From positions 434,001-498,000 of the forward strand of contig JABSSW010000002.1 in NCBI GenBank assembly GCA_018902385.1: a stretch of 64,000 nucleotides of DNA, read 5' to 3'. The notes under the pieces were generated by a model. That model was not told the DNA's origin. It did not search any database and was given only the letters and a program-made list of their open reading frames with translations. Of this stretch, positions 1 through 24,250 are shown piece after piece; the stretch's first letter is position 1; each line of letters starts with the position of its first letter. The DNA comes from Physcia stellaris. Taxonomy: Eukaryota; Ascomycota; Lecanoromycetes; Caliciales; Physciaceae. Position numbers and translations under genes: made by a program.

Positions 1-102
1 AACTGTCAAACTCAACCTACTTTCAGCATGGGAGATAGTCGTCCAAGAATCGTGATCGAGACCGAAACCCCGGTCGTCGGGAGCAATGCCCCCGAGTTCT
101 AG
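1..102 (+). CDS. possible 3' end of a gene cut by the left edge
   Basis: The frame starting at base 1 is open for 33 codons and ends in TAG at 100-102. The peptide has an acidic, hydrophilic C-terminal look (it includes PRIVIETETPVVG). No domain can be recognised and the stretch is short, so it may be chance. It is the only open frame that reaches the left edge with plausible codon use. Confidence 0.3.
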   Translation, partial: NCQTQPTFSMGDSRPRIVIETETPVVGSNAPEF

Positions 103-1744: not shown

Positions 1745-2531
1745 GACCAATATTGATAGATGCCGGAGGGGATGTTGGATGTATGATGCTGTACAAAGAA
1801 TCTGCCCTACTGATTTGAGGGTGTGTGAGAAGAAGGCAAACACGGGGGCTCTGTAGGTCTTTTAATGGCACGTTTCGCTCCCAAGCGTTGAGCAGAAAGC
1901 AGTACATTGTTCGGATTGGCTGGAAAGCGTGGAAGCTTGCTGGTGAAGCTATCGAGCGTAGTCCTAAGCGATGATGCGTTGAGAGCCCAGACTATTGCAC
2001 AGGATGAATGCAAGCTCATAATCCATTCAGAGGCTTATGCCATGCGTTGACGCTTTGGCTGTTGTGGAGCATTAAAGCTTGCTCGCATGCGCTAACTCGT
2101 CACAGTTACACGCATCCTAGGCACTCGTCCTCAGGTATTTTTGAACGTTGTCGACTCGTGAGTCCTTGCTGGCCTTACTAGCCTCTCTAACCTCTCTAGG
2201 AGACGGTTGGTTACAAACATAGGAAGAGCACGCGCTGCAATAGCTATGGGTTTCCAACGCAAGATAAACGGTAGAGAGAATATACATATGATCATGGAAA
2301 AATCTGCCCATCAATTTCAATATTGAAGCTGACTACTAAAGCGATCAAACAGTGAAGTTGCTGGCTGCTATGTTATAAGGAACACAGAATACAGCCATCG
2401 TCTGTCGCCATTGTCACCAATCGATAAGTCTATCATAACTTCAACCAGAGACTCTTTGTAAGTGATGACCCATCTGGCTTAATTCCAATCTCTCGCATCG
2501 TCTGCAATTGTGTAAGGGCGCAGAAACTTGC
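1745..2531. other. intergenic, nothing recognised
   Basis: No open frame with credible coding content is present on either strand. The frames reaching 1843-2019 on the minus strand lack an ATG or recognisable sequence. Confidence 0.45.
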
Positions 2532-5460
2532 TCATCCATTGTTGAAAGGCTCCTGGTTTAGCGAACGAATGGTGTTGAAACCCGATTGAAGGAAGATTCT
2601 TACATCGTCCCCCTCATCGATATGTGAGACTGAAATACAAGAGCTGTTCGAAATATCTTTATTTGTTTCTGAGTGATCCATCATAGGCATCGTGTGTACT
2701 GAATAGGATTCACCAGCGAGATGTGAAAGCAGGAGATTTGTGACAGATGTATGGCCATATTGGTTGGCAAAGGCCAGCGCCGTAGTCCCTGGCGTATACG
2801 CCTCTACGTTAACCCCAGCTCCTCTTTCGATCAGGAGCTCTGCGATGCTCAGGTGTCCAAAAGTAGCTGCGTAATGAAGTGCCGTCCAACCATCAATATT
2901 TCTGGCTCTCAAATCAGCGAAATATACTAGAAGTGGTAGCGCTTTGCCACAACCGAGCATTGCTGCGAGATGCAATGGTGTTTCTTTTGTCAGTTCCGTC
3001 GCTTTGTTCACATCGCTACCAGCCATGATGAGTTGTCTGATACTTTCCGGTCGGTCGGACAGTACAGCCCAGTGTAGTGGAGTTTCTCCTGATGCTGTCA
3101 CTGCATTGGGATCAGCGCCATGCTGCAGCAAAAATGTAATTATATCCGATCGTCCCAGGGCCGAAGCATGGTGCAGAACATAGCTCTCTTCTGAATCCAG
3201 TCCAGGGCTGTAAGAAGCTCCTCGCTTTATGAACATTGTCGCTAAATCCCAATGCTGATTGCTCAATGCCTTAGATAAAGGAGATGCCATCGGCGAACAA
3301 TCTCTGCTATTAATATCGGCACCCATTTCGATGCAAATCTTACTCAATTCCAAAAACCCATAAATGGCACACTCATGAAGGACAGTGGTGCGCCATTGAA
3401 CCTGCGTGGTAGCGTTGGGAAGATTAATCTCTTCCTCGTCGATATATAAAATCTGATGGTGTGAGATTTTGAGGTATTCATCGATAACACCAGTGACGTA
3501 GAAGCTTTCAGACTCCGCGGCACGACAGTGCTTTGTCCAATTGGTTTCAGCATACTCCAAGAGACCCAGCGTGTTACTGGAAGAAAGGATATCGCCAGAT
3601 GTTGGTGGGTTTTGTGATTGCCGAAGCTGGCACTGAGTATGCCAAGTCAACACACGCACGCAAGTTAATGCTAGCATTTCTTGAGCCCCATCGCAACTGA
3701 GTGTGGTACTCATACGGTGGATATCAGATTCCAGGAGCCTTCGCACCTCCTGATGAACGAACCTTACGAAATGCTTGTGATCTATGGTTACTAGCCCTCC
3801 ACAAATATAGGTGATGGATCCCCAAAGATTGTCTATCAAGCGACTTTCGACATATGTTGGTCCAACCGTTGAGGTAGGAAGATGCCAGTAGACATGCATC
3901 GCAGCCTTTAGTTCTTGCACAGTCAAAGGCTGGTTCGCCCACAATAGCCAGGCAAATATTCGACTCGCAAGAGCTTCTCTCTCGGACGTTATGTTCCCCA
4001 AAAGCTGTCTAACATCAATCATTGTTAGGATTGGCGAACACAAAGGTTCAGGATCATCGCCAGAATCCAGCCCAAGCATGTCCTCTTGTTGGCAAAGCGC
4101 TAAATGACGAGTGAACGCACGTATTTCGTAAGAATGATATGGAAATTTTTTGACTGGTTGTATTTGGCTGCCCGGGATATCTGTCCAAGCATGGTTTGGT
4201 CCTAGATTAATTCGTTGCAGGCATCTGCAGAATGTATCGAAACCATCGATTGTCGAGCTAAGGAGACCTTTTCGTTCTGTGAAACAGTCGCTCAACTCAA
4301 TGAGAGCGATTTCAAGCATTCGTACAAACCGAATATTTTTGATGCACCCTTCTGAGACGCTGAGGTGAGAGATATGGGATGGTGTGCCCGAGAGGGACCA
4401 AGAATAGCCGTTCCCAATATTATCCCAACTCCTTGAGCTCTCACAAAGGCAATGGCAGACGATAGTTTTGTCTTCACTTCTGGGGCTTAGCCATTGCCTC
4501 TCAAGACCATTGGTGCTCATGCACGCCAATGGATCGGTACATATCTCCCTATAATTCTGCATGGGCTGAGTTCGCCGAAACCAGTACGAAGTCTTAGCAC
4601 AGATCCTAGCAAAACGGTTTGTAGCTACCTCATCAACCGCCTCGTCATCTGGTTTGAACATCTGCAATGGCCTTCTGTGCAGGAAATTGCGCCATTGAGA
4701 CGTAGTTTCAAAATTTGGACTACTTATGAAAATCTGTTTCAAAAGATTAGCGCTGTTTACATTCAGTGCGCCTTGGAGAGTTAATTACCACCCCACGGAG
4801 ATATCTACAAAGCCAAGATGACATCCCATACTTCTGAGACTCGAGTAGAGCCTGTGCCTGTAAGCAACAAGGTTTCTACCCTGTTGAAATACTCACCTGT
4901 TTGACCACAAGGCCCCCAATACTGTAAGCCACCAATATGGTGGGACACCTGTAATCCTGACACAACTTGTTATTATTCTAAGAACTGATGTCCTGATAGT
5001 TGTGATGATACCTCAGAACAGTTCTCTGCCATTGCTGTTGACAACATCTTTGCAGATATGTCGATATATGTTTTGCCTTTGAAGTGATTTTGCGACCAGT
5101 GTCTTCCATCGTCTACCCAACTGCGTATACGCGAGCTCGGGCGCAGGCAATGCAAGGTGTTGATCAAATAGTTATGTGATTCCTCCGTCTGGGTCCACAG
5201 TGTGTCTGGCACTTCATCAAGACCGTCTACAATGACGAATACAAGGCTACAGGGTATTAGCCATTGATATGATTAGGTGTCGGTTTCGACTTACTCGGAC
5301 TCAACTGCTGAAGTCATTTGCGGTTCATACACTGTATTCATCCCAAGAAATTTCCCCATCTTGGATGCAGAGATGATATCGACACCCCCGGCTTTAAGTC
5401 AAGGTTGAGATATTGGGGATAGTAAATTTTACGATTGAACAATCATCTTAGGTATCAGGC
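2532..5460 (-). pseudogene. NACHT/ankyrin NLR-like gene, probably degenerate
   Basis: Fungal NLR-like proteins are STAND ATPases of non-self recognition: N-terminal effector, NACHT, winged helix, then repeats. Here the minus strand carries the C-terminal parts in one long frame of 736 codons (2532-4742). A winged-helix-like segment (ASRIFAWLLWANQPLTVQEL) lies around residue 260. About six ankyrin repeats lie around residues 445-680 (for example ETPLHWAVL and WTALHYAATFGHLSIAELLI). The frame has no ATG at its upstream end. Further upstream, about 5190-5250, is a Walker B-like stretch (LVFVIVDGLDEV). It is preceded by a plausible 48-nt intron with a GTAAGT donor. I could not find a Walker A, and the segment between Walker B and the winged helix does not look like a NACHT domain in any frame. 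The gene is therefore most likely decayed, or heavily intron-split. A short acidic tail follows the repeats. It points away from the next ankyrin gene. Confidence 0.5.
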
Positions 5461-5782
5461 CAAAATATCTCAGAGAAGTAAGGGAAGCACTGCCTACTAG
5501 GCATTTCTTGAAACGTAATATCTGGGAAGAGAAAAAGCCACAGCCTTGCATGAGGATATGTATGCCACTGGTAATCTTCTACCTCCCAACGAGGCAGTAG
5601 CTCCGACGTCTCGCCCAATGAGGCACTAACTCCGACTTTCGATTACCGCGCTGCGCGGCAGGATTGGATCATGTCCGATTACACTGTTCATCCGATTGGC
5701 GGACGAGATATACACGTTAAACAGGTCATCGAGAGCCATGAAGCGACAGAGCGATGACGCGCTGAAGCGGCAAAGCACTGAA

Positions 5783-5820
5783 GCGATGGAGCGATGGAGC
5801 GATGGAGCGATTGGAGCGAT
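5783..5820. repeat. short tandem repeat, 8-bp unit GCGATGGA
   Basis: Three exact copies of GCGATGGA are followed by a one-base variant copy and a partial one. Looser copies of the same motif extend upstream to about 5740. It lies between the two degenerate ankyrin genes. Confidence 0.8.
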
Positions 5821-6099
5821 CATGCATCACGGCGCAGAAGCGAAGCACCAGATATTTGAGGACGCTTAACGAGCCAATGACAAAAAAATGAGGCTGGACC
5901 GATAGCCAATGTGGTCAGATAGCAAGAAGGCTGTCTCAATGCAACACGGCGTCGTGGCTGTGCACTCCCCACAATTGTAATGGGTTGATCCATCCGATGA
6001 TGGATGCCAGCCTGATTTCGTAAAGAATCTTAGCAGCTTTTGTCAGATCAGCTATTGAGCCTCCTGGACGCCTCGAGTTGTGGCACCGAATCCTACATC

Positions 6100-8011
6100 A
6101 TGCAACGTACTCGTACCCTCAGAGCTTGTATCTATTGTCGACTGGATCGAAATAACGTGCGTTAATAGAGCCTCCATAGTAGAGCTACGTCACTTACAGA
6201 TTTCCGTATCGGAGATCATGAACCTTCTGCTAACAATTAGTAGTCCGGCTGCATACATCCGGCGAAGGAGGGAAAATTGGGCATTTGCACGCGTTGTGCC
6301 CAGAAGGACTTCCCATGTGGCCCCTACGAGCTCAAAGAAGAGTCAGAACGCTATTTGACTGCTCAAAAGCCAGGCCAACACTACCTTCTTACATTGAAAA
6401 CGACAAAGTCGAGCTGAACAGGTCTGTTCCAACCAGCAATACTCGGAATCGGGATGCACTGCAGATGCAACAAGAGGAAGGTGAGATCCTGGATTCGCAT
6501 TATAATGGACTATCAACATCGGGAACCTCAATGGAAGGCCTGCTAGTGGGAACGTCAACCCCGTGGAACTCGCAGGAACCTATAGATCCTCATCTTGAAA
6601 ACCTATCTCACGATTTCTTTGACCTGCCCCCACTCCAACCGCCGAGGCCGCAAGCCCAACTCTCTCGAGATATTCAGGACCACGGGCGGAGTCGAACCGA
6701 AGCGACGATTACCGTGGCCAGCATTGTTGGCCCGGAGGGGAAATAGATACCAAATCACCGTATGTAATTTGTGGAAATGACAACCATGTTCGACAAAGAC
6801 TTGGCTGACCTATCTGATGTCCAGTTTTGTGGCTTACGAAGTACTAAGGTTGTATCAAGAGCATATAAAGACGTTGCGGAAGGATCTTGAAGCTCGTGAT
6901 GGTCTGAGCCAGTCAGCTTTTCATACTATGAACGACGCAAGCGAGAAAATTCAGAAGGAGATTGGCCATATGGTGGCTAGTATGGTAGACTTATACCACA
7001 TAGCATAGAAGTCTAGCCATGTTGACCGGGTAAAGTGGATGAGTCCGTATGTGTAAAGAGCAATGGTGGATACCGATTATCTCCCGCCGGAGCAACGGAA
7101 AGACGAGCTCCTCGGAATAATGTATTTCCACCGAAGATGCAAGGATACCATGGCAGTCGACAAGGTTTTGCATAATTTGATGCAGCTTGGCATGGTCGAT
7201 TCTGCGACCAAGCCGACGGCAGCAGATTTGTTCGCCGAATCCATGGAATCATTTCCCCAGAGCCCTGTCACGGGCGAAAATGGCATCGGCAACAATGTCC
7301 TACCCCGTCTTCACTACCTTGTCAGCTTGGGGATCATCGCGCTCATGCCAGCACTGCAGATATTCGCCGCTGGTAAGAAAACCCCGAAGTTGGACATGTT
7401 TAACCGCAACCTCCTACACGTAGCTGCTGAGAGAGGATACACTTTGATCTTGGAGCATCTTCTCAATCTTACTAAGTCTCACCCAACCTTCATATTGGAC
7501 ATCGAGGCTCGGGATGTCGCTTTGAGGACTCCTATGTGTCTGGCCGTTCTTCACGGTCATGAATCTTCCTATCGGTTTCTTAGACGATGGGGAGCTAAGC
7601 TCGATGTACGCGATGACACCAGCCATTCGCTACTAGCTAGCGCTGCGAGCGGTAACCACATCGGGATCATGAAAGATCTAATTGAGGCAGGGTAAGCACG
7701 ATTAAATTTTCAAGTTATTGCAGTGCAGCTTGATCGTGTCTTTCTTGCTCCAAGGGGTTGCGTACCTTCTCCCTTCAAGGTCAATGCTTATTCATGGGTT
7801 TTAGACGCCCCGTCAACGAGAATGTCCTGGGAGGAGCATACCAGCCACTTCATGCTGCCGCAGAGAAAGGTCATCTAGAAGCAGTGCAGCTCTTAATTAA
7901 GAAGGAGCACGTCCTAGACTTCTGAAGATGCCTGAAAAGAAGAAAGCGTCCCAATTAGCACGAGACAATGGCTTCACAATTGTTGCCGACGCAATCGACG
8001 AGGCCGGCTGA
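6100..8011 (+). pseudogene. zinc-cluster-like / ankyrin repeat gene, probably broken
   Basis: The ATG at 6100 opens a short exon reading MQRTRTLRACIYCRLDRNN. A phase-0 GT donor follows at 6157. The AG at 6243 leads into a segment with a second cysteine cluster (CTRCAQKDFPC), so together they resemble a Zn2Cys6 domain with spacing C-x2-C-x8-C-x11-C-x2-C-x6-C; the x8 is longer than the usual x6. Downstream are a Ser/Pro-rich region (about 6360-6745), a helical segment (6830-7005), and ankyrin repeats in 7063-7695 (for example NLLHVAAERGYTLILEHLL). After a GTAAGC donor near 7692, a last ankyrin segment (PLHAAAEKGHLEAVQLLI) and an ankyrin-type tail (KKKASQLARDNGF) fall in different frames about 7800-8011. 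Several frame changes are not explained by good introns, so I treat the gene as degenerate. Zn2Cys6 plus ankyrin suggests a nuclear regulator, by inference only. Confidence 0.4.
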
Positions 8012-8766
8012 ATATATCAGGCTTGATAAGACATCATACCTCCGGCGAGCTGCTTTACACTGATTGTGGGTAAGTAATGCTGGCTTAGTGACAGTAGCAG
8101 TCACTATGCTTATCTCTAGACTTACTCAACATCTTTACAGTTTGGTAGTGGTGACCCAATTCATTAATACCCGGAAATCGATTTCAGCCCAGGCTTGACC
8201 CTACATCCAGGATAGTCTGAGGAGTGATACCATCTTCTAAACGACACCTTACTATCAGCAAGTTGAATACACGACCAGTTGGGAGCACCCAATGTCAGGT
8301 GACGTCTTGGGTAAATACAACTTGCACCTCAAAAGCTTCGCTGGTTCCAGTAACCACGATATATTGACTTAGGAGGAAGTAATAGCGTCTTCTCCGTGAG
8401 AAGACGTTGGATCTTGCGACGAAGCTGCCAAGCCGCCGGCGATGCGGTGACGAGAGGCGACACTCCCGTCGAGTCAAGTCCGATTAGACGCAACAGGGTA
8501 CAGGGGGTTTCCTAGCCGCCGCCGACAGTCAGTGGGGGTACTCCCCCTTTTGAGGTGTGAATATTGCTGGATCGGAGACCTTGATGGTGAGGATAGATGT
8601 ATTTAATGACTTATGCATCGAGATACATATGACCTTTTACTGTGTACGGAAAGCGCCGGAAAATTTGACTGGCAACTTCCTTTCACGTGCTGTAAACTTT
8701 TCAATGAGTGGAAAATGATGAAGTGAGGAGAGTTCTACCCGTATTCAACGAAGCAACCTCCGTCCA
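8012..8766. other. intergenic, nothing recognised
   Basis: No credible gene. The sequence includes a purine-rich stretch and short frames that lack recognisable protein. Confidence 0.45.
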
Positions 8767-9387
8767 TCAAACAGGCTCTTGCCGACTCCACCTCCATCCC
8801 CCGAGTTTCCCTATTGCACCTTCCCTCCAAGTCTTCCTTTTCTCCTTTTGTTCCTTCCCATCATCACCTCTGTCCCTCCCGACCCCCTTATATCCGTCCC
8901 CAAGCTCTGCCCTCGACTCCTCTGCCGCCAATTCAACACCTTCTCCTTCACCAACTTCACACCTTGCATCGCCAGTCTCCATCTCCGCCGCTTCCCTGCC
9001 CCCAGCCATCTCGATTATCTCTTGCGTGGCATCCAGCTCCATCTTCAAGTTCTGGTACCTCGAACTCCAATACGCTTTCTGGTATGACTGTGGTGCTCGT
9101 GATTCCCAGTTGGGACCCAAGCGCTTCTCTTGTCGGCGTTTCAAAAAGATCAGCCCCAAAGGTATGATTGCCAGCACGGAGAGTACAGGCATGACTATGC
9201 CTACGAGGGCCTTCGCCTGTGTGCGGTAAATGGTTTCGTGAAATGCATATGTTGGCGATGGGTAAGCTGCTTCATTGGGATCGGTGGAAGATATAGAAAT
9301 TCCAGATGGATTTCCGGTTGGTGCCGGTATGGCGACGACAGTCAAAACGGACAGCAAAGCTGCTACTAGTGTGTTTTCGATGATCAT
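8767..9387 (-). CDS. secreted-type single-pass membrane protein, unknown function
   Basis: A 206-residue protein in one exon. Residues 1-20 are a clear signal peptide (MIIENTLVAALLSVLTVVAI) followed by a Pro/Ser/Thr-rich ectodomain of about 35 residues. A single membrane helix lies at about 58-82 and is followed at once by basic residues (FLKRRQEKRL), giving an outside-N, inside-C orientation. The cytosolic tail is highly charged, Glu/Lys/Arg-rich and low in complexity, and ends in a Trp-containing basic stretch. This layout resembles fungal cell-wall-sensor-like proteins (Wsc/Mid2 topology), but no cysteine-rich WSC domain is present, so that name is not justified. The next gene at 10480-11598 on the same strand has the same topology. 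Confidence 0.6.
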   Translation of the reverse strand: MIIENTLVAALLSVLTVVAIPAPTGNPSGISISSTDPNEAAYPSPTYAFHETIYRTQAKALVGIVMPVLSVLAIIPLGLIFLKRRQEKRLGPNWESRAPQSYQKAYWSSRYQNLKMELDATQEIIEMAGGREAAEMETGDARCEVGEGEGVELAAEESRAELGDGYKGVGRDRGDDGKEQKEKRKTWREGAIGKLGGWRWSRQEPV

Positions 9388-10479
9388 AATAAATGTGATA
9401 TAGCTTTTGGCATATTCGGGGAGCAGGCAGGAAGCATTGCTTGATATAGGTAGGGAGCCACGGTCTCAGGCATAAGGATAGCCGAACAAGGCAAGATGAA
9501 CCATTTACCCTCTTCGTATCTCCGCACCATTGCTGATGAGTGTACGACAAGGAGATCGCAGGCCCAAGATTGTTACCCATGGCGATCGTGAAAGAAGCGT
9601 GAAAGGAACGCGGACCGCTTAAGGCAAGTGCCGACGGCTGTCATACAAGGCGTCGAGCTGCACCTCCAGCGGAGAAGCGCCCCTAATAGTTACCGCAACG
9701 GCCTTCAAGTAGCCCGGATCACGCATTTTGAGGCTGCTCATTGCAGATTAAGCGTTCTCGATGCATGAAAACGCCTTCCAGGCTGCGAAATGGTGACACG
9801 CATCGCAAACAAACGAATGGGGACCTGATCGAATGAACAATCAATGATCACCGTGGGTTCATGCTGTACTCTTTGCTAAAACCTCTGCAGCCTTTCAACT
9901 TCTGACACCTTTTAGAGACAGCTTGAGTGGTAGATCTCGAAATTCCATCGATCTAAGAATCTGGTCTCGCGGGACTTTCGCCGAGCATTTTTGCCGTTAT
10001 TTTTCTAAATAATAGTCTTACATCGATAGCGTGAGTCCTCAAAGCACACTGTGTACTTGCTCGCAAGAAATACATAGAGAAGAATCAAAGGAGATGGAGC
10101 CGTCCAGTGGTTCTGGCAAGGCGCCCACCTTGACAAATTTGAGTGCCGAATTGTGGAGTGAAGAGATCGTTGGCCACTTAAGAAGCATAGCGAATTCAGA
10201 ACTGCATTTGCAATACATTCAGAGACGAACATCCCAAACGTAATCTTGACCTGACCATGAATCCATCTGATTGCGGCACTCATTGACGTCTGGGGCGGAA
10301 GAAGATGTCCAGGGTTGAACCTCAGGCTTTGTAAGACATAAGATGCAAGATCTTGGAAACGTCGGATCATATCAAATATTAGATCGAGCACAACAACAAG
10401 AAGCGGTTGAGCAATCTGATGAGCAGCACCTCAGCTAGCTCAGTCCTAGGAGCTTAGTTCACTGCTTGGTTCGATACCT
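9388..10479. other. intergenic, nothing recognised
   Basis: The minus-strand frame at 10005-10391 and the plus-strand frame at 10031-10243 overlap each other and have no recognisable sequence. I leave both out as genes. Confidence 0.45.
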
Positions 10480-11598
10480 CTAAGCTCTTGCCGAGTACTG
10501 GTTCCCCGCTCCCGGTCGATGTGCATTTTGGTCGCCTTCCTCACTCATCTCAAATCTCGATTGCTCTGCTCCTAGCTCATACCTGCTCTGGTCTGCGTGA
10601 AGCTCTGGCTTCAGCGGGGAAACGATGTGAGAGGCTCCGTTGGCGTTGTCTCCAGCAGGGCCGCTTGACTGTGCTGCTGAATGAGCCGCTCTCACTTTTC
10701 GTCGACGATAAATAAGCACCCCTGAAATGAGAAGGAAGACCGTGACAACTGGCAGTATGGTAGCAAGAGCGATTACTGTTGGACGTCTATGCTCGAGTAT
10801 TGTACGATCCGACGTAGCTTTGGGTGTGGGCAAAGGCAACGTTATCGTTCCTGAGTTGACAATCACTGATGATTTTAGATTAGCATTACCCTGCTCTAAA
10901 TATGATTGATCTTTAGAAGCATCTAAATTGGGAAATTGAACTTCAAAGCAGGTATTTAAGATTGATGAAAGCATTCAAAGAATACATACCGCCCGAGCTG
11001 AAGCTTGAAGTTGAATCTAGCGTCGTAAGAGCGGCAACTGCGAAACAACTCGAGTATCCCAGGACATCCTCAATTCGGCTTGCAGCGAAATCATCAAGCT
11101 TAGTCCCCGCAAGTGTGGTCCCGAGGCTAATGGTATGGATGGTACCTGTGACTGGAGGCTGGGTGGTTGTGAGACATTTACCAGTGGATCCCTCCCCACC
11201 AATAAGGTAGCTTTGTAAAGCTGAAGTTACAGAATATTCGCTAAACTCAATGAAAGAAGATGATTCAGTCCTGTGAGGTCAACCTAAGTATGCGTACGGT
11301 TTCCGTTTTGAATAGCATCTGTTAAAGCTTACGACCTATATTTAGCGTTGATCAAGCATCCGATACCGCATCCTGTAGTGCTAACGGTAAGGTTGTCGAT
11401 TGGTACGAGGGAGGGTGAAGAAAGGTCAGCGTTAGAAGTAATGATGATACCCAAATCTATCATTAATCTCTTAGATCTTACATAGTGCATGCATTATGCT
11501 AACATACCCGGGGCATCAGAAGTCGAGCTACCTCTAGCACCATGAACTTGAGGCGCCAGCAAAGCGATAAACCATAGGACATACAACATTGTAAGCAT
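10480..11598 (-). CDS. single-pass type I membrane protein, four exons
   Basis: Exons 11598-11508, 11456-11333, 11270-10990 and 10940-10480 join in phase through GT..AG introns of 49-62 nt, giving 318 residues. The start ATG is followed by a signal peptide (MLTMLYVLWFIALLAPQVHG). The ectodomain (about 25-218) is Ser/Thr-rich with few cysteines, including a small CGIGC motif. One helix at about 220-242 is followed by a YRRRK stop-transfer. The cytosolic tail contains two related motifs, RYELGAEQS and RFEMSEEGD. The last acceptor has an alternative 29 nt downstream that also keeps phase. No family was recognised. The topology suggests a plasma-membrane sensor or wall-anchored protein, by inference only. 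It is the last gene before the AT-rich block. Confidence 0.6.
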
Positions 11599-12530
11599 GT
11601 TGGCGGTAGCAATCGCTTCTATATTCCTCTTCTCGTTAGCTTCTAACCATTATGGTCCTCGGAGATAGAAAGACAGATCTATTTCCAACGAAGAAGGGAG
11701 GTCGTCCAGTTCTTATCTGATCCCCCTTTGCGCCCCTACTCAGGGCTGTGTAGGTATGCCCTGGGACCAACATACCTTACTGTTGTCGAGACCTATGCAC
11801 AAACCCCGCACCAGACACTGCGATGCGAGCCATTGGTTACCTTCGAAAGTACCGATACGTCCCGCAATGAATTGATTCGTTTTGGTGATTGTGCTGCTGC
11901 ACTACGTGAGCAGTCATTGCCTTAATGCGCTATCCATAGTTGGCTGTTCTCCTAGGCTAACAACGGGCCCTGTCCGCGTAACATTTCCAAGGTCAGGTAG
12001 CGGAGTATCTCCTTGAGCAGATGCGCGTTTGACATGTACTTACATTAAGTTGCTTCCTATTGTACTTCATACGTACAGGGACCATAATATTAGCATAGTC
12101 TACCGTGCAACGTTGCTGGATTGTGCAACCACATGCTGACACTTGTTTTGAGATCGACCAAGAAACACTAGTAGATTAGGTCCTAGGCATCTGTATGCTC
12201 AAACCTGGGTCCGACTGAAAGTGACACTGTCCCAAAGATGGCCCAGAACGCTGCAGACAGGAGACACTAGATCCAGACCTTGACACAGCGTCGATCTCCA
12301 CGTAACGGTACGTATCCTTAGCTCATTGAACCTTGGCGTAGTAAGATGCAAGACTTGTAGTCACTGCTGGCTGAGAACATCTTCTCTCGGCTCGGAAGGA
12401 CTGAGCGAAGGATGACACCGCAGAATCATCTACATCATCTGTGGTCGCTAAAAGGGTCCTGATTTGGAACAAGGCATTGATGTTGATTGTGCAACAGCGT
12501 GCTACAGAGTGATCAGAAAGAGTTAAGGTT
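11599..12530. other. intergenic flank of the AT-rich block
   Basis: The base composition is ordinary, with normal numbers of CT, AG, CC and GG, up to about 12530, where it changes abruptly. No gene is recognised; the open frame at 11728-11925 has no support. Confidence 0.5.
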
Positions 12531-15149
12531 GATATGTCAATCGTATCGAAATAAAATTTCTTCTTGTCGATGAAAATATCAATTTCACGACATTTATTTC
12601 ATGATTTGAAATAAGATGAACGAAAACAATTGTTTGATCGCAATCAATGTTCATTGATTATCATTTTTCAATTAATGTTTTTTTAGATTGAAAAAAAAAA
12701 TATTCGTACAATTCACATTTGTCAACTCTGAATTCGTTGAAACATGATTAACTTGTAAAATAAAAACAAAAATTTGTATATCAGAAATATTTCATGATGT
12801 TTCATGTCAAAACACGATTTTGTGAAATCATTTGTTTGACAATATCAATTGATTTTCAATCATCAAAATTTTGTTTTAGTTGAATCAATGAATTAAAAAA
12901 TTTGTTCGTATCAATTGAATCAATTAATTAAAAAACAAAACGAAAAAATAAACAAACGAACTGATTATTTTAAAAAGATTTAAAATAGTTATTTCAAAAA
13001 TTACAAAAGTTTTTTCACAATATCGTGTATAACGATTTTTGTAATGAAATCGTCTTTCAATACAAAAAATCTCATAACATGATTTTATTTTTTTAATTCA
13101 CATATTTATTTTTTCATTTCGTTTTTCTTTTCGTTTTTTTCGTTTTTTTTTTCGTCACAATTCGATTCGACGTCGCGTAAATTTTACGCATTCATTCGAG
13201 TCGAAAACATTCAAAAAACGAAAATAAATTTTTTTTCACGACGATTGATCGTCGTGAAATTGAAACTCAAAATTTATTTCGTTTTGAAAAAAGTGTTTTT
13301 GTCGATTTTGTTTTTTCGATAATAAAAACAATATCATTTGAATCAAATTCGATATCGAAATCGAATTCGACGTCGTAATCGTCATGATGTTGTTCAAATT
13401 GAAAATTCTCGTTTTCGTTTTTTTTTTCGTTTTGAAACAAAAATAATGATAAATCGTCGACGACGTTCGAACGATTATTTAATGATTCGTCGTCGATGTC
13501 GTTTTCATTGAATCGCGCGCGATCATTTGTCGCAATCGTTGTTAAAAATAATAATTGACAACGTTTATTAAATGATCGTCGCGAAAAAAACAAATTTGCG
13601 ACAAAATAATTTTCATCATTTTTAATCGAAATTTTAATTTTTTTTTTTCGTCAACGAATTTTACGTTTGTGACGATGATTTGAAACATCATTTTTATAAT
13701 TTCGAATTGAACACGTATCGAATTTGAAAACAATTTAATATTTGACACATTAAAATTCGAAAATATTTATTGAATGAATAATTCGATATTTTGTGTTTAA
13801 ATACGCAATTTTCGTAAATTTCGAAACGACGTCGTGTTTGAATGCATTGAAAAAAAACGAAATTGATTTTGTATTTTTTTCGTGATCGCGCATCGATTGC
13901 AAAACGATATTGTCAATTTTCAACGATTTTTGCGACGTCAAATTAACAAATTTTCATTTTTTCACAAAAATGCGTATTTGAATGATCAACGTTTGTAATT
14001 GTTAAAAATGCGTCAAGTTCGCAAATATTCGATTTGCAAATTGCAAAAACATCGAACGCGTGTTATAAATATTGACGAATTGTGAACGATCGAAAAAAAA
14101 AAAACGAAATTTCAATTAATTGTCATCGTCAAATTGAACATTTTGATTTTTCGTTGTTTTATTTATTTGCGCGATATTAACGAAAATCGCGATTTCATTT
14201 TGATTTATTGTTATAATAAATATACATTTCACACATGCGAATGAATACAATTTACAAATGATTCAAAATTTCGTTTGATTAAACATCGTGATGCATAAAC
14301 AAAAAAAAACAATATTGCAATTAAATGTTGATCGTGAAAATACGTTAATGAATTATTAATCGAATGAATATAAATAACACAATCAATGAAATTTTCAATT
14401 TCATTCACAATATGATAAAAGAAAATCGTTTTATTTAGAATTCGTTGAAAACAATTTCACATATGTTAAATTTGTAATTTTTTTTGATAATTTATTGCAA
14501 TCGTACAAATTTGACTTGAAAAAAAATAATGATTGTTAAAAAATTTTCGATAATTGTATTGAAATTACAACATTTTTCATACAAAATTTCAAAATGCGAA
14601 TATCAAACGAAATGAAAAAAAAATATTTTTTGTTTGCGAAAATTATCATTTCAATTCACAACAATTTGAACGAAATAATCGTATGTCATGTATTTGTAAT
14701 TAAAAATTGAAATTGTCACATTGCGAACATTTTTTTCGTACAAAAATACAAAAATGTCGATGTACGTTTGCTGACAATATTAAAAATAATAACGAAACAC
14801 GATGTTGCACACGTCATAAATAAATTTGATTCGTATACATATTCGAAATAAATTCAACAATGTAATTTGTGTCATTTTTCGACGAATTTGTTTTATTACA
14901 TTCAATTTTTTTTCATTAACACGAAATTATTTTCGAAAAATTCGTAAAATTAAAACATTTTTCGTATCAACGACAAAATCGAATGTAAAAAGCAAAAAAT
15001 CAAAACAAATTTTCATCAAAAAATCAAAAAGAAAATTGTTGAAAAATATGATTACAAATCGATTCGATCGTCAATTCATCACGTTAATTTTTGTTTCATA
15101 CATTTTCGTGACAATATTTTTTAAACGATCATATTCGATTATTGTTTGC

Positions 15150-18100
15150 TCGTTCATTCGAAAAATTTTTGCATAAAATCGAAATGAATATTTGATTTTA
15201 TCGTTGCGTTTTATTTAATGCGATGTATGCGTATTTTGCGACGAACATATTGTTATCAAAATTTATCGATATATTCGTCATGATAAACGATTGAATTTTA
15301 TGAACGATCAAAACGAAAACGTTCAAAATCGAAAATTGAATTCGAATGTAAAATATTTCATACAACGTTTTGTAATTCGTGTAAAAAATTACATACAATT
15401 TTTAAAAACGAAATCAATAACGTTGAAACGATTAAAAAAAAATTTTAATTTTTATTCGTTCGATCATTGAAAAAATCACGATAAAATAATTTTTGTCATT
15501 TATTTTGATGATCAATTCACAATTGTCGTTGATTATGTTTCGAACAATGAAATTATTTTTCAAAAACATAATTCGTGTTTCAAAAATTATCATCATTTCA
15601 TTGAACAAATTGTTTTTTTTGACAAATTGTTTGTGTACGAATTTTGTCAAATTTTCATCTCGTTTTTTATTTTGAATTTTGTGAACGATAACAAATGAAT
15701 TGCAAATTCGTTGCAACAATAACGCGTTAAATCGTAACATTTCGTTTTTGCGAAAATAAAACGAAATACATTTATGAATTAAATTTTCGATTCGAAACTT
15801 TCTCTTCGTCGATGAAAAATATTCATGATTTCATTTATGATTTTTTCAAAACGAATCGTTTCAAAAAATCGTTCGAATTCTGAATCGTTGTCGTGTTTTT
15901 TGAAACGTTTCAAAAATAAAAAAATGAAAATTTTTCAGACGAAAAAATGAAAAATTTGACGATTTCGAATCGATGATAATTGCAATAAATCGTCGAAAAC
16001 AATAACATGAAAATTTTCAAAAAAAAATGCATTTTTGTGTAATTTGACAAACAATTTTGAAACAAAATTGAACATGTCATTGTTAATCATGAAAATTTCA
16101 TCAATGATAAAAATTCTGATTTTTTTGAAATCGTTTAACGAATTTTCGATGCGAAATATATTTGACAACAACGATTTATAATCGAAATCGTTTTGAAAAT
16201 TGATATGCAAATTGTTGTGAATGATTTTTTTTTCGACGTTTTTTGCAACAATATCGATAAAAATCATTTTCAAAATTTTTAATTTACGATTATTGCATCA
16301 TGACACGAAAATGTGCAACAGAAACGATTTGTTTGTTTTTTTGAATTTGTAACGAAAAATCTGTTTCTCGTAACTTTCGAATTGTGACGAAAAAAAAAAT
16401 TGTTTATGATTCGTTGATATGTCACATATTGATTTTCATCGAAATTTAAATTGTCGTCGAATATCGAAATCGATCGAATTTTGTTTTGCATTTCAAAAAG
16501 TTTTTGTCGTATACATTTATTTTCGAATTCGAAATTTTCAAAAAACAAACGTTGAACGATTTTCAAATAAAAAATGTTAATTTTTACGTCACGTTTAATC
16601 ATTTGAAATGTTGTTCAAAAATTCAAATTTCGATATTCGTTTGAATAAAACATCATGAAATGATTTCGATAACATGAAATTGTAAAATTCGATATGAATT
16701 TTCGAATTTTTTTTTTGTTCGTCATGATCGAGTCATCAACAATTTTTCGTAAAAAAACGTTTCGTCGTCGATTAAACGTCGTTCAATGTTTCGAATTAAA
16801 ATGTGTTAAATACGTCAATTTATATGTAACGTGATCGTCAATGAAAAAATCATATTTTTTTTTTTTGACAACGTTTTTTACATTATTCATAATTTCACGT
16901 TCAAAATTTGCGTTCGATTTTGTCAAATTGTATTGCGCGTGATAGTCGAAATACGTCAATTGATCGTAAAATGAATTTGAAAAACGAACAAAATATTTTT
17001 CGATTTAATTCTTGTAAAAAAAATCAAACTTTTCGTTTTTTTTTATTTTTTGTTTAATCAAATTTTTTTCTAATTGTCATAAAGATTTTACGAAAACGAA
17101 TCGTTCATTTGATAACGTGATATCGATATACATTACAATTTTGTTACATCGAAACATTTCGTAATTCAACATCAATATCATCATTTTCATCGAATTCATT
17201 TTACGAATCATTAAATGTTTTTTGATCGCGTTACGAATGAAAAAATTGTACATTTCGTTCGATTCGATTTTGATGACATATTTGTTAACATAAACGACAA
17301 AATGAATTTCGATGATGTATTGAATATTCATGTGTGCGTTTCAAATCAAAAACATTTGAACGTTATATGAAAAAATTCAACGATTTTTCTTTTTAAATCG
17401 TTTGTAAATGTAACGTTGATCGTCGTTCACGCATTCAATGACGAATGACAATGATTGAAAAAATTCAATTTTATATCGTGATTCGTTGATCAATTTTTTG
17501 CGACACATATTCGAACGACACGTGTGAATTTGATGTTTCATGATCAAAACGTGTAATTCAAATTTCTTGTTTTTATTCGAAACGTTTGTTCGTATGAAGT
17601 TTTCGACGATCATTTCGAATATGAATTTTTGAATTCAAAACAAAACATGAATGTGAATGATTTTTTTTAATTGAAATTTCATTCGTTTCATCATTTTTTT
17701 TAATTTTTCGAAATCGAATATTTTCGAATTTCGCAAAAAATAAATTTTAAATGCTTTTCATCGAAAATAATAATATATTACAATTTTTCAAAATCGATTA
17801 TTCGAAATGATGTCGCGATTGTTTGTATTTGCAAAAATTTCGACGTATTCAAATCATTTTTCGAAAAATGTCGTCGTGAAAAACAAATGAAATCGACATG
17901 TTGTTTTCATTATGATGTTGATTTTCTGTTCGATTTATATTCAATAAATAAAATCGATTCGCAATTGAATTGAAATTGTGATCGTTAAATTTTCGTTAAT
18001 AATCGTGTAAAATTCATAAACGTTTTGTTTGATCAATTTCGTCGTAACGAAACGTTCAATTATTTGACGTTTTTTTCGTTCGATCATCAATTTATTCGTG

Positions 18101-18750
18101 TTTTGAAAAATGCGCAATTTTTTCACGCGCATGTACATTCATGTTGTTCAATAATGATCGTCGCGAAAATGTGAAACGTTTCAATTCAATTTGTATTGTG
18201 CGTTTTTGAATGCAAATTTGAAATAAAAATTTTTTTTTTTACGAAAATGTTCGATTTCATAAAAATACAATCAAGAAAATATACGAATTTTCAAATTTTT
18301 GTCATTTTTAAAATATCAACGATCGTCATTGATCATGTTTTGTTTTTCAAAAAATCGATTAAAACGAAAATTTTTGTTATGAATTTTCGAATCATATTGA
18401 TCGACGCGCACGATAAAATCGAATTTGTGACACGATTTTTTTCATTTGAATCGAAAATTTCGAATGTCGAAAATTTTACAATGAAAATATCGACGACGAA
18501 AATGATATAATTTTGCAAAAATCGATTGTGAATTTTCAATCAATTTGTCACAATCGTTAAATTTTTTGCATTTTGATTTTTATCGAGAATTTGCGAAAAC
18601 GATTGAAAAATTTTTTCGATAATATCGAAATAAAAATCAACGTTCGCGAATTTTTGAAAACATACATGAAACTTTGATGCAAACGTGAATAAACATTTTC
18701 ATATTGAATCATGACGATTTATTTGAAACGATTTTGTAAATGATTCAATT
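15150..18750 (-). mobile_element. heavily mutated Helitron (Rep/helicase) remnant
   Basis: Helitrons are rolling-circle DNA transposons that encode a Rep (HUH nuclease) fused to a PIF1-like helicase. Reading down the minus strand, traces appear in the expected order. There is an HIHV segment at 17647-17655 matching the HUH motif, then a Cys/His part (HVLIMKHQIHTC) in 17377-17613. A YVNKY pair of tyrosines sits at about 17292 and 17280, the spacing of the two catalytic tyrosines. A helicase start lies near 16330-16480 (QYVTYQRIINNFF). A Walker B region lies at 15935-16273 (IIDEIFMINNDMFNFVSKLF). Late helicase motifs follow at 15432-15740 (TRIMFLKNNF) and 15198-15398 (NVFVLIVHKIQS, then AYIALNKTQR). 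Many stops and glycine-to-polar changes show it is dead. The termini (5' TC, 3' hairpin plus CTRR) were not located, so the limits are approximate. Confidence 0.75.
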
Positions 18751-21700
18751 GTTTCGAATATCGTCAACGTTTTGAATTTTTCAAATTCGTCATCAATTTC
18801 AAAAATGACAGAAAAACTTTCGATCGATGAAATAAAAACATTATTTCGTCAAATCATGATTTTATTTGAAACATAATTCGTGAATATTTTTGACACGAAA
18901 CACATACGATTATCAGTCGTTATTTCATCGTCATCAAATTTATAATGCAATGATTGACGAAAAATCATGTGAAAATCGTATTCAACATTTTTTTCGAAAA
19001 CAAATCATTTCGTATCGTCGAAAAACATCAAAATGTCGCAAAACGAACATGCAATTTTGAAAAAACGACGATTGTATTTTGTTCGAAAATTTTGTAACAA
19101 TTTGTCAAACGCAACATGTTGCAAATACAATTAAAAAACAAAAACGTCGATATTCGAAACATATGCAATTTTGATCGATACGATGATTTTCGATTTCATG
19201 TTCGTTTGATGAATTAATAAATGTCGATTTAAATGATTTTGACGTCGAAAAAAACGATTGCATTTTTCGCATTTTCAAATTCGATCGCTTTTATGAATCG
19301 AAAAATGTTTTGTTTTATTATGATTTTTATTGAAGATTGTTTCACACGTGTTACAGACGTAACGATTTTTCGTTGAATTTGAATTGCATGTTCAGCGTTG
19401 AATTGTTTAATCGCAATTTTGATATCATAAATCGCGATGATGAAATTCGATTTTTCAATAGTAATTATCGTAATTTAAATAGATATGATGTCAGAAACGT
19501 GAATTCACTCGAAAAATGAATCGTGAATAAAAAAACATTTTATCACAATCGGATATGAAGACGAAATAAGTTATAAAATATCATTTTTGACTCATTTTCG
19601 TTGACAGATTGCACAATATTGATTGTACGAAAAAATTTGATCATACAAAAAATTATTGAAAACAAAAACACGACGATGACGACAAGACGAAAAAACGTAA
19701 ACAATTTGAAAAATAAATATCGATTCGAACAAATCGAAAAATACAGAATTGTCAAAAATGTAAAATACGAAATGTGACATCAGAAATGTATAATCAAAAA
19801 CAACATTGTTTCTAAATTAATAAATGCAAAATTATTCGTTTTGCAAATTTTCAATTATAAAATCGTTTCGCATGTTTATTAGTACGAATTAGTCAAATAA
19901 CGTGTTTCAATTACAAATCATTGAATTGATTGCTTATTGTGATACAAAAAAATGTAAACAGCATTTTTCTGATTCGATGTTTGTTTTGCATACGATTTTG
20001 TTGAATTTTTGCTGATTTGAATTTTGAATGTTTTACATGTTACATTAATGTTCGAAAAATCACGTGATGAAAATTTGATTTAATTGATCGTTATGTTGAA
20101 TATATTGATCACGAAAATTATTTTTGAAACGAAAAACGTTATACGAACATTAATGATCGAAAGCGAAATTGATAACAATTTAAAAAAAAAATCAAATGCG
20201 AATCACGATTGACAAAAATGATTTTTTTTCAATTCGAAAAAAATGTTAATTTTGACATTTATTTTGTTTAATCGAGAAAATCAATTCGAACGATGCAACA
20301 AAAATCAAAAAAACAAAATTATTTATTATTTGTTTATTAACAAAAAATTAAACATTAAATCAAATCATTATTACGATTGTTTTTTTTTCGTTTAATTTTC
20401 GCGTTGCAAAAACAATTATTTGAAACTTTTTGTTGATCGTTTTCATAATAACATTCATTGTTTTTCAAATGATTTTTTTTCACGTCTGATTTTTTTGATG
20501 AAAATTTCGATTTTCATTTTATCGTCAAACGTTTTTGTTGTCGCATTTTCGATATTTATTTCAACGAAAATTGAATGATTATCGTTTGAAATCATAATCT
20601 GAAAATCATCGTCGTTTTCGATTTCGACTTGAGACATATGCGAAATGAATGAAAATTGTTGAATTCGAATCGCGACGAATTCGATGAAAAAATCAAATGT
20701 GAAAAAAATTATTGAAAAAATTTCTAAAAAGAAATTTGCGTCGACGCAAAATTTGAAAAAACGAAACGTTCGAAAATGAACACTGTTTCGCTCACAAAAT
20801 TGTTCAAAAATCATTGAAAATTGTCGTCAACGAGCGCGTCGACAAATTGATAAAATTTAAATTTGTAATTTCGTCGAAAATTAAATAACGAAACAATTGA
20901 TTAAAATTCATACGAAAAAACGACGAAAAAAAAAAAAATGAATATCAATCATTTTCATCGAATACGACAATGTAAATGATTGTTATGTTCAATATTTTGT
21001 CGACAAATGAATTTTTGTTGTCGTTTAAATAAACGTTTTTATTGACATACTTTTTCGAATTATGATAATACATGAATGAAAACGTTTGCTGAACAATCGA
21101 TTAATGAAATTTTCACGAATTTTGAATATAAAAACAATATTTGAATAACGTTTTTGTTTTTTGATTATCACGAACAGAATTGTAAATTTCGTTGATTTGC
21201 AAAAATTGACGTTTTATCGTTTTTAAATATTGCAAAACACAACATTCGTACACATTCGCTCATTTGAAATTCAATTAAAACATTGATTGCGAAATTTTGA
21301 ATCAAAACAATCGATTGAAAAATGAATTGAAAACATAAACAAAAATCAAGACGAAAAACACGAACGAAATCATATTTGACATGAAAAATTCGTTTTGAAT
21401 AACATGTCGTCGTTCAGCAAATACGTGTTTTCGAAATCGATGTTAAATTCATTGTTTTGTCAATGAAAAAAAAAAACACGATTTTTTGAATTTTTCATTT
21501 TTGAATGTAAACGATTTCGCTTTGACGAAAATCGTTAACAATCTGAATTTGATCGTCAATTTGATCGATGATGACGAAATGTATCGTGTAAAATTTGAAA
21601 AAATTGAAATCACAAAAAGAAAATCTATGCAACGAAAAAAAAAAAATGAAAAAATGTAAATTATGAAAAATAACTGAATGATAAAGAATGAAAAAAAAAA

Positions 21701-21980
21701 AAAAAAGAAATTATATATTCAATACTGAAAATTGAATTTTTGAATTTCGAAAATTTTGTTCATTCGAATTCGAAATGTTCATGTTTGATTCGAAAAATTG
21801 AATAATTCGAATTCAAAATATCAAAAAAATACGAAATACTGAAAATTGAATCAGTCGAATTCGAAATATGTGACAAAAATTACTAAAAAAAAAGACGTTA
21901 AAAGAAAAAACACTAAAAAGAATTTTTATAAAAAATGTATGATATATGCATATGATAATCATATTGTATATTATAACATA

Positions 21981-22005
21981 TCATGTCATGTCATGTCATG
22001 TCATG
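21981..22005. repeat. microsatellite (TCATG)5
   Basis: Five exact TCATG units in a row inside the AT-rich block. Confidence 0.9.
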
Positions 22006-22325
22006 ATATAAAGAATGTTGATTTTATCAAAAATCAAATAAAATTTGTTTCAACGAAACGTTCGATTTTTGCAAATTGAACGTGATCATGAAAATATTGA
22101 AACGCAAAATCGTCAAATTTTCATCGTATAATCAAAAAATGAATGTTATTCGAATTCATGTTGTTTGTCAAAAAACGAAATTGTTGTTGATTATGACAAT
22201 GCGAATTGTTAATTACAATTTTATAATTTCGAATCAAATTGAAATGAACGAAATCGATAAATATCACGAAAAAATCAATTTCATCATAATGCAAACAAGT
22301 TTTTCACATCGAAAATAATTTTGAC

Positions 22326-22760
22326 ATTTATACATTTTTGTCATTGATTGCGTACAATATTCTAAACAGCTGAAATAAAATATTGAAAATTTTAAAAGAT
22401 AATCAATTCAACAATTCATGATGTAAAAATCATTTTGTTTTTGTTATCAACTTTCGATGCTTTTAGTTTTAATTCGAAAATATCATGAAACAAACAATTT
22501 TATGACATTGATGACAAACTTTCAACACGACAATTAATTTTAATGTTTATACACAGATGTCGTTGATTGCGTACAATATTTTACGCAAATAAAATATGAA
22601 ATTTGAAATTTTGAAAAAGCGAAATTTGAATTCAATGATGTTGAAATCAATTTGTTTTTGTTGTCAATCAATAATTGATGTTTCATGATCAACATTTCGT
22701 GAAATTATTGTTACGAATTCGAAAAAACTTTATTTCGTACGTTTGTTTCAATCAATAATC
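22326..22760. repeat. diverged direct repeat, period about 219 bp
   Basis: A shared core (TTGATTGCGTACAATATT) occurs at 22344 and 22563. Other shared pieces follow at the same offset, including an ATGATGT-type motif and TTTGTTTTTGTT. The two copies are diverged. This part of the block also has more CT/AG than the rest, so it may be a different element or a later arrival. Confidence 0.55.
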
Positions 22761-23885
22761 GTCGTTTTTGCAATTTTTTTTGCATTTATTTCAATTTTTG
22801 CATTGCATACATCAATTCGCACGATCGTACATTTCTTCACATCGTGACGATGAGTTGTAATACGAAATTTTGAATTTCAAAAACGTATTTCTGACACGAT
22901 TCAACGCGTTTTTGAATTTTCATCACGTCGTAAATTTCACATACGTTCAATTGTGATCGCGCGACGATGCTTTCAATGACGACGAAATAAATGATTTTTG
23001 ACATCAATACATTCAATTGATTTTTTTGATCATTAACAATTTCACGATTTATTGCGTTTCTTTTTCTGTTACAATTCAGATCAAGAAATCTGTCGAAACA
23101 TTTGTTCGATTTTTTTCTTTTTCGTCATTTTCATCTTTTTCGTTTTCTATTTTTCGGTTTTTTTTTTTTTTTTTTTTTATCATTCGTTTCGTCAATATTA
23201 TTACATCGTTTTTATTTTTTCGATCGACATTTTCAACATTTTCTTTTTTTCGATTCGTACATTATTTCGTCACGATTTTGTTTTGACATTTTTTTGTGCA
23301 ATCGTCGTTGTTTCGTCAACGTTTCAATCATTTTTTTTTTTGTTTTGCGTTCAACATCAATTTTCAACGTTGTCACAACAACAAAAAAATAATGTTTATT
23401 GTTTGTTATATTTCACATGTTAACAGTGATTTCAAATTATCAATTCGATTATTTTGAAAATTTTCATTCGCGTCAAAATTTGCGTTTTGAATTTATAATC
23501 ATGAAATAATTCATTCGATTGTTCAACATTTTGTTCATCATACGATTCGAATTCGCGATTTTTTGAATGAAAAATGTTTATTTACAATTTTAATCGTTAA
23601 ATCATTCAATCAAATTCGTTTCATTAAAATATTGATTTTTTATTTGCATATATATACATTATGCGACATTCAAACATATTTATATTTCTTCAATCAAAAT
23701 AACGTTTCAGTCAATTTTTCATTTTTTCGTTTTATTAATTTGCAATTCTGACATTTTTTACATTCAATAATCGGTTTTTTGTAGCTATTTTGTATTCGTC
23801 AGTTTGAATAATCAATTTCTTTGTCCGAAAACATCGTGATTATTTTCATTCATTCAACAATCCGATACACTGTAATTTTAATTTT

Positions 23886-24250
23886 CTCGCATTTCACGCT
23901 GTTTCGAGATAAACTTTATCCGCAAGCCGTGCTCCTCACGCTAAGAAATCATTGTTGTACTGGGTTAAAGCGCCTAAAAATGCTCGATAAGGTTCAACAT
24001 GGTGCGAAAATCTTTGTTCAAAATCAGGAGGCAACTGTCAAATGAGACACCCTCGTAATTCTGTAAAAGAAGTATGCACTCAGCGCAGGTGCTCATGGTC
24101 TGACACTAGATGGATCTTGACTCGATGCATGTGATACGCCAGGACGTGTCCCCTTGAGGTTTCGTTTGTCCTCTCTTAAATCATGGAGCTAGCTTGATTC
24201 TCGGAAGACTCAGGCGACGACAGGTTTGTAGCTAGAATTGCTCGATTTCC
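23886..24250. other. right flank of the AT-rich block and 3' side of the hydrolase gene
   Basis: Normal composition returns here over a few tens of bases. No gene is seen. Confidence 0.5.

Follow-up and report, generated by a model that had tools for sequence, protein, structure and literature searches.

A block of the Physcia stellaris genome that has lost nearly all cytosines preceding a pyrimidine is very probably explained by a RIP-type process with CpY instead of CpA as its target. The block occupies positions 12530-23885 of the window, the whole stretch of 64,000 nucleotides that was analysed (contig JABSSW010000002.1). Changes of C:G to T:A occur on both strands in the order CpC >= CpT >> CpA > CpG; near-saturation was reached before other mutations could accumulate, and the signature recurs at the AT-rich loci that were inspected genome-wide. 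That mutation is restricted to repeats is shown in part. In the proposed mechanism, repeated DNA would be recognised and its cytosines converted to thymine on both strands, probably in the sexual phase, and the block would be a transposon copy mutated in this manner; the target would be C before a pyrimidine and not C before A, with CpC hit no less strongly than CpT. The initiator may be a RID-family DNA methyltransferase with altered recognition of the 3' neighbour base.

A sharply bounded zone nearly without CpC and CpT

The mutated zone (12530-23885) comprises 11,356 bases with a GC content of 0.253 and is depleted on both strands; dinucleotide counts, with observed over expected in brackets, were CC 2 (0.01), GG 3 (0.02), CT 78 (0.14), AG 69 (0.13), CA 699 (1.34), TG 737 (1.34), CG 640 (3.53), TA 642 (0.40) and AT 1537 (0.97). 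In the flanks (1-12529 and 23886-64000), CC, CT, AG and GG stand at 0.90-1.07 of expectation. Both edges are sharp: on the left, the number of CpY plus RpG sites per 100 bases drops from 21-27 (12130-12529) to 3 (12530-12629), and on the right it rises from 6 in 23785-23884 to 19 in the following 100 bases. The residual CpY sites did not cluster by strand in a run test (85 runs versus 76.8 expected). The first-pass annotation had counted four 60-base lines by hand, and a recount agreed that these hold no CT, AG, CC or GG, with CA+TG at 33, CG at 17 and TA at 11. Its broader statement, near-complete CpY loss with CpA intact, is confirmed, CpC loss being near-total, with two refinements: CpT depletion is large but incomplete (78 sites left), and CpA is slightly hit.

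The zone lies within a repeated element, probably a Helitron, at about 12468-23970 (strand not assigned), with copies on nine other contigs. The element edges were obtained with an extended query, as a query cut at 12530-23885 cannot show them; left ends fell at 12464-12471 in five of the seven pieces reaching that edge, and right ends at 23968-23975 in all three. The repeat is therefore slightly longer than the mutated zone, with edges 60-90 bases further out; CpY is normal in its outermost ~60 (left) and ~85 bases (right), which are not mutated. When seven of the nine open frames of the block were scanned, one on the minus strand (15935-16297) resembled the PIF1-like helicase of Helitrons, a weak match (E 0.0015, 18.6 bits) below the Pfam cut-off of 25.9. 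Helitron_like_N (PF14214) was not detected in the block itself, only in a sister copy on another contig (C18:257133-257576), where it exceeded the cut-off at 43.1 bits; transferred through the alignment of the block with that contig's less mutated copy, L011, its approximate place is 17670-18115 on the minus strand, uncertain by ~10 bases. The block is thus a decayed multi-copy element, probably a Helitron.

Substitution spectrum of mutated retrotransposon copies

Within the 44 Mb genome, a retrotransposon has one copy, L027, with normal CpY (observed over expected: CC 0.95, GG 1.00, CT 1.04, AG 1.10), against which its mutated copies were compared. Summed over 11 copies, C-to-T changes were found at 4188 of 4282 CpC, 3915 of 4535 CpT, 302 of 4317 CpA (7.0%) and 135 of 3997 CpG sites, together with 146 transversions in 33,911 and 260 T-to-C changes in 16,508; matches of less than 400 columns were dropped from this total, and ten divergent rows were excluded (L028, L029, L031, the second piece of L039, L041 twice, L042, L053, L054 and L056). 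Because L027 has normal CpY while its mutated copies have lost it, the CpY bias is mutational and not pre-existing.

The cleanest copy, L044, gave the clearest spectrum; over 3,466 columns aligned to L027, 920 of 922 substitutions were C:G to T:A, the remainder being one transversion and one reverse transition. Changes affected 438 of 440 CpC, 451 of 462 CpT, 26 of 443 CpA and 0 of 410 CpG sites, and CpG decay was rejected as a candidate on the last of these counts. The two strands were alike, with CpC at 183/183 and CpT at 191/196 on the plus strand and 255/257 and 260/266 on the minus strand, such that CpY was changed at 97-100% of sites on each. The sparing of CpA is not absolute: CpA was hit at 6-7%, against a T-to-C background of 1.6%, and its changes favoured CpApY (184/1649 versus 89/2264). 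A 5' context was sought and none was found, CpT being changed at 0.83-0.90 across the four 5' bases; it is the 3' base that decides.

Mutated copies of the frame carried by L027 contain 79 stop codons, of which 73 arose from TGG to TGA and one from CAG to TAG, although the frame itself has 7 TGG and 12 CAA/CAG codons. Since stops arise almost only from TGG, disrupted elements retain long frames with abundant missense changes.

One observation runs counter to a RIP model, namely that L027 is untouched, though L044 differs from it by two bases besides the C:G-to-T:A changes; in RIP as described in PMC2621366, both members of a pair become mutated. L027 coexists with matches of 67-75% identity, with none between 75% and L027 itself. 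RIP recognition generally spares copies that are below about 80% similarity; the position of L027 fits this threshold but does not prove it.

Independent comparisons and genome-wide spread

The block was compared with L011 over block positions 1941-6306, yielding changes at 33/33 CpC, 220/236 CpT, 60/570 CpA and 12/514 CpG sites, with 266 CpY changes and 22 transversions in 4,349 columns; the L011 row alone is quoted, as totals of the block-versus-copy alignments contain overlapping loci. The first-pass annotation's proposal of a C-to-T process that hits CpT and CpC and leaves CpA and CpG alone is thus supported by the L027, L044 and L011 alignments, in which changes lie at CpY and not mainly at CpA. 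None of the outcomes that the annotation had named as refuting it came about, the unmutated relative L027 included, since its CpY is normal.

The only 5.8S match (39 of 2,644 candidates scored) is a mutated rDNA relic. Against conserved Rfam columns, taken from all of 5.8S, six of eight LSU blocks and two SSU blocks (one minus its first columns) picked for good alignment, the relic was changed at 32/39 CpC, 21/42 CpT, 3/49 CpA and 2/45 CpG sites. When all columns were counted, lower-case ones included, the contrast was weaker (CpC 93/135, CpT 57/93, CpA 12/88, CpG 21/116), because the consensus does not represent the ancestral sequence in those columns. Both the rDNA relic and the stop codons agree with the CpY spectrum; one of the scans behind this covered 149 of 150 rows, with 150 of 527 candidates scored.

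The classical RIP thresholds were passed by none of 377 AT-rich 500-base windows, a non-random sample drawn from 611 that include overlapping loci, and the highest TA/AT among them was 0.69; five had a CpA share below 0.30 and one a CpC share above 0.10. An AT-rich, CpY-poor part was present in 24 of 30 reverse-transcriptase loci. In the only unbiased sample, made up of 20 fixed-position stretches of 600 bases each, two were AT-rich and CpY-poor, one was intermediate (L062, GC 0.38) and 17 were ordinary.

Candidate enzymes and alternative explanations

The genome encodes two RID-like methyltransferases, L001 and L003/L004, on contigs C5 and C6. L001 and L003 carry PF00145 and are identical to each other at 70 of 174 residues; from their layout we take them to be putative members of the RID family. 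The RID-like genes are split by presumed introns; the frame of the one on C6 contains two TGA codons, which we read as lying in predicted introns. A DIM-2-like gene, L002, matched PDB chain 9bap_A in phmmer at E 2e-181 over two aligned stretches in a best-hit test within PDB; the entry is named only DNA (cytosine-5-)-methyltransferase, and we presume the chain to be Neurospora DIM-2. Of the branches left open by the first-pass annotation, the RIP variant is favoured because RID-like and DIM-2-like genes are present. Whether a RID-family enzyme sets the CpY context is about evenly balanced, and we hold with equally divided confidence that one RID-like methyltransferase changed its base recognition, such that RIP is directed at C preceding a pyrimidine, CpC most strongly of all, and leaves CpG entirely alone.

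It is unlikely, though worth weighing, that the context of this same hypermutation is determined by DIM-2 and not by an enzyme of the RID family. The strong match of the DIM-2-like gene to 9bap_A would allow it, a CpT preference is stated for DIM-2 in a 2026 review (PMC13297926), and in Neurospora RIP of older repeats was reported in 2025 to be abolished only if both genes are deleted (PMC11969663). However, the same review assigns DIM-2 all CpN contexts, whereas in L044 CpG was unchanged, CpA rarely changed and CpC almost always, and CpC as the strongest site matches no DIM-2 preference that we found described. CpY methylation of repeats followed by slow spontaneous deamination of the methylcytosines could draw on the DNA methyltransferase genes present, but it is highly improbable: slow decay would be accompanied by many substitutions of other kinds, and is excluded by the single transversion and single reverse transition beside 920 C:G-to-T:A changes in L044, as by the 22 transversions beside 266 CpY changes in the comparison of the block with L011. 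Just as implausible, in our view, is a process driven by a cytosine deaminase, whether APOBEC/AID-like or from a different family, and not based on a methyltransferase. Deaminase editing resembles C-to-T hypermutation in general, but APOBEC enzymes generally read the 5' neighbour, whereas here the 5' base hardly matters; moreover, a six-frame search of the genome without introns returned no APOBEC_N hit at E <= 1, though it had no positive control, the control genomes also being without a match over the cut-off. The deaminase branch of the annotation accordingly found no support in this search, which covered the APOBEC_N family alone. Ordinary RIP at CpA, to which AT-rich repeat blocks in fungi of this sort are usually due, can be dismissed, and so can a compositional bias already present in the element prior to mutation: full counts show CA/TG not depleted and TA not raised, with TA/AT at 0.42 and (CA+TG)/(AC+GT) at 1.39, both on the non-RIP side of the classical signature (TA/AT >= 0.89 and (CA+TG)/(AC+GT) <= 1.03; PMC3164635), and the normal CpY of L027 contradicts the bias.

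Implications and comparison with known systems

A RIP-type process directed at CpY bears on a rule that has been regarded as general. According to a k-mer survey of 1,239 fungal genomes, RIP-like defences share a CpA preference (PMC12543289); this genome is a clear counter-example of near-complete specificity, and therefore the sequence context that RIP targets is able to evolve. Altered RID recognition, if true, would turn around the CpA rule that RIP-like defences are believed to share. The genome also offers a natural contrast for finding which RID or DIM-2 residues read the 3' base, still a question because purified RID is reported to show no methyltransferase activity (PMC13297926). Classical indices would score such blocks as RIP-free, a blind spot of standard scans; the usual tests miss the process because its signature reverses the usual one. 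CpT use beside CpA, noted for some fungi in the first-pass annotation, is borne out by the reports cited below; of a CpY target with CpA spared we found no instance in searches of the open-access PMC literature.

With RIP of Neurospora crassa and other Pezizomycotina, the process shares C:G-to-T:A changes on both strands of repeats, sharp-edged AT-rich blocks, mutated transposons and stray rDNA, and RID-like and DIM-2-like genes. The order of contexts differs; it is reported as CpA>CpT>CpG>CpC in Neurospora, and as CpA~CpG with CpT>CpC in Trichoderma reesei (PMC5496416), unlike the CpC>=CpT>>CpA>CpG found here. C-to-T changes at CpT in repeats are shared with several fungi. CpT signatures beside CpA are described in Magnaporthe, Botrytis and Sclerotinia, with CpT termed predominant for M. 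oryzae and B. cinerea T4 (PMC4352252), and also in Colletotrichum truncatum (PMC6180176) and Anisogramma (PMC10998396); CpT is reported as the dominant form in Neurospora Tad1 (PMC2621366) and in alignments of RIP-capable control fungi (PMC7882544). In these fungi, as far as the accessible text of the reports goes, CpA is also a signature or is exhausted, as in C. truncatum (TpA/ApT about 1.6, CpA index about 0.1; PMC6180176), whereas here CpA is nearly spared and TpA is low; CpC, the strongest site here, is mentioned nowhere in PMC4352252. Microbotryum and other Basidiomycota likewise show RIP-like change at a non-CpA target, reported to be CpG (PMC4352252), the context that remained untouched in L044.

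Composition and extent of the mutated block

Across the Physcia stellaris genome (43,974,083 bases in 147 contigs; the window is C2:434001-498000), the AT-rich places examined carry a variant of repeat-induced point mutation (RIP) that is real and very sharply defined. By window counts, the block at 12530-23885 has a GC content of 0.253, against 0.48-0.50 in its surroundings, and contains 2 CC, 3 GG, 78 CT and 69 AG dinucleotides; CA (699), TG (737) and CG (640) all exceed expectation, and TA stands at 0.40 of expectation. These full counts bear out the first-pass annotation, which had described an AT-rich block with loss of C before a pyrimidine (CpY), abundant CA/TG and CG, and low TA. The boundaries of the mutated zone are sharp, resolved to 100 bases or less. 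Elsewhere in the window are frames that we take to encode an SSK1-kind response regulator, Zn-cluster proteins and HMG-box proteins, as would be expected of a filamentous ascomycete; by eye, a single open frame at 34438-35466 seems to combine an HMG box and a Zn2Cys6 cluster with a SAM-like region.

Copies of the block occur at 66-94% identity on at least nine other contigs, a lower bound because 14 of 276 candidates were scored. With a longer query, left ends fell at 12464-12471 in five of the seven pieces that reach this side (of the two that deviate, one runs into the end of its own locus), and right ends at 23968-23975 in all three pieces; the repeat exceeds the mutated zone by about 60 bases on the left and 85 on the right, and these margins (12468-12529 and 23886-23970) show normal CpY although they too are repeated. 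Judged by its coding content, the element is probably a Helitron, since the block holds a PIF1 helicase-like frame on the minus strand (E 0.0015, below cut-off; seven of nine frames scanned) and a sister copy on C18 gave a Helitron_like_N match above the Pfam cut-off. A Helitron_like_N region also lies on the window's own contig, at C2:1304017-1304595, within an unbroken frame of 794 residues.

Direction and context of the changes

Block positions 1941-6306 were compared with L011, a less mutated copy on C18. C/T differences affected 33/33 CpC, 220/236 CpT, 60/570 CpA and 12/514 CpG sites; the block had T and L011 C at 206 CpT and 33 CpC sites, whereas L011 had the T at 14 and 0 sites, and the same 4,349 columns held 22 transversions.

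A reverse-transcriptase search, in which 150 of 527 candidates were scored and 30 made into loci, yielded 24 loci with an AT-rich part 500 bases long or longer, where the CpC share was at most 0.012. Among the other six was L027 (C52:253840-257322), a retrotransposon copy with a GC content of 0.51, normal CpY and a matched reverse-transcriptase frame free of stop codons. A DNA search with L027 returned 23 matches, L027 itself and 22 at 67-75% identity in about 18 places, with none in between; 11 mutated loci aligned closely. Over the 11 copies with transversions below 3% (10 rows left out), CpC had become TpC at 4188/4282 sites (97.8%), CpT TpT at 3915/4535 (86.3%), CpA TpA at 302/4317 (7.0%) and CpG TpG at 135/3997 (3.4%), while T to C changes numbered 260/16,508 (1.6%) and transversions 146/33,911 (0.4%); the 5' neighbour had hardly any effect on C to T change. 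The CpY bias of the repeats is thus mutational.

In L044, the cleanest mutated copy, 920 of 922 substitutions were C:G to T:A, the other two being one T to A and one T to C; summed over strands, 438/440 CpC, 451/462 CpT, 26/443 CpA and 0/410 CpG sites were changed. Almost all targets were mutated before there was time for other mutations. The rare CpA changes preferred CpApY (21/26, versus 165/414 of unhit CpA sites), as they did over nine copies (184/1649 CpApY sites hit, versus 89/2264 of the other CpA sites). Once C:G to T:A changes are set aside, L044 is two bases away from L027, yet L027 is untouched; L027 may have escaped by inserting later, or L044 may have been paired with another copy.

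Independent tests of the signature

Ancestral letters from outside the genome were supplied by Rfam for L026 (C41:44399-47552), a stray rDNA relic that comprises LSU, 5.8S and SSU pieces and is heavily mutated. At conserved columns, which are part of the alignment and show a stronger contrast than all columns together, changes affected 32/39 CpC, 21/42 CpT, 3/49 CpA and 2/45 CpG sites. L026 holds the sole 5.8S match among the 39 of 2,644 candidates scored, so the assembly may lack the functional rDNA array.

CpY-only change can create a stop codon only from TGG, as TGA. Stops in mutated copies of the L027 frame numbered 79, made up of 73 TGG to TGA, 4 TGG to TAA, 1 CCG to TGA and 1 CAG to TAG; the scored reverse-transcriptase matches (149 of 150 rows) held 249 TGA, 33 TAA and 3 TAG. 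Across 377 AT-rich 500-base windows, the median shares of C before A, G, C and T were 0.47, 0.43, 0.00 and 0.09; none of the 377 passed the classical RIP thresholds (TA/AT >= 0.89 with (CA+TG)/(AC+GT) <= 1.03), and the highest TA/AT was 0.69. Two of 20 fixed-position stretches were AT-rich, both with the CpY signature, and one was intermediate.

Process and candidate enzymes

The process turns C:G into T:A on both strands, densely and fast, and where tested its changes lie in repeats, which is RIP's way of working; given also the methyltransferase genes and no APOBEC_N match in the genome, we read it as a form of RIP whose target context has changed, and infer its enzyme, sexual timing and dependence on duplication. 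The context would probably be set by a RID-family enzyme. Four C5-methyltransferase domain matches are read as three genes. L002 is DIM-2-like, matching PDB 9bap_A (E 2e-181), a chain we take to be DIM-2. L001 (C6) and L003/L004 (C5), which by their layout we take to be of the RID family, carry the motifs FGDCFxGxGG, SPPCQ and KQIGNAVPP; the L001 and L003 cores share 70/174 residues (40%), and SPPCQSFSPAQS in L001 stands where L003 has SPPCQFFSDAHT.

Comparison with known RIP contexts

CpT targeting by itself is not new. In the accessible portions of the papers cited here, the order of preference is CpA>CpT>CpG>CpC in Neurospora and CpA~CpG, CpT>CpC in T. reesei (PMC5496416); CpT is listed beside CpA for Sclerotinia and B. 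cinerea B05.10, and for M. oryzae and B. cinerea T4 it is given as predominant, ahead of CpA (PMC4352252). CpT likewise stands beside CpA in Anisogramma (PMC10998396), overshadows it in Neurospora Tad1 alignments (PMC2621366), and is described as dominant among control fungi capable of RIP (PMC7882544); in a table of that paper, large RIP-affected regions have a product index of 1.6 and a substrate index of 0.2-0.3. According to a survey of 1,239 genomes from 2025, a preference for CpA is shared (PMC12543289). The accessible parts of PMC13297926, PMC5555474, PMC3164635, PMC11969663, PMC5602860 and PMC8959702 do not describe a CpY-only case. The CpT families of Colletotrichum truncatum have TpA/ApT of about 1.6 and a CpA index of about 0.1 (PMC6180176, as far as its accessible text goes); there CpA is already exhausted, the opposite of the case in P. 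stellaris.
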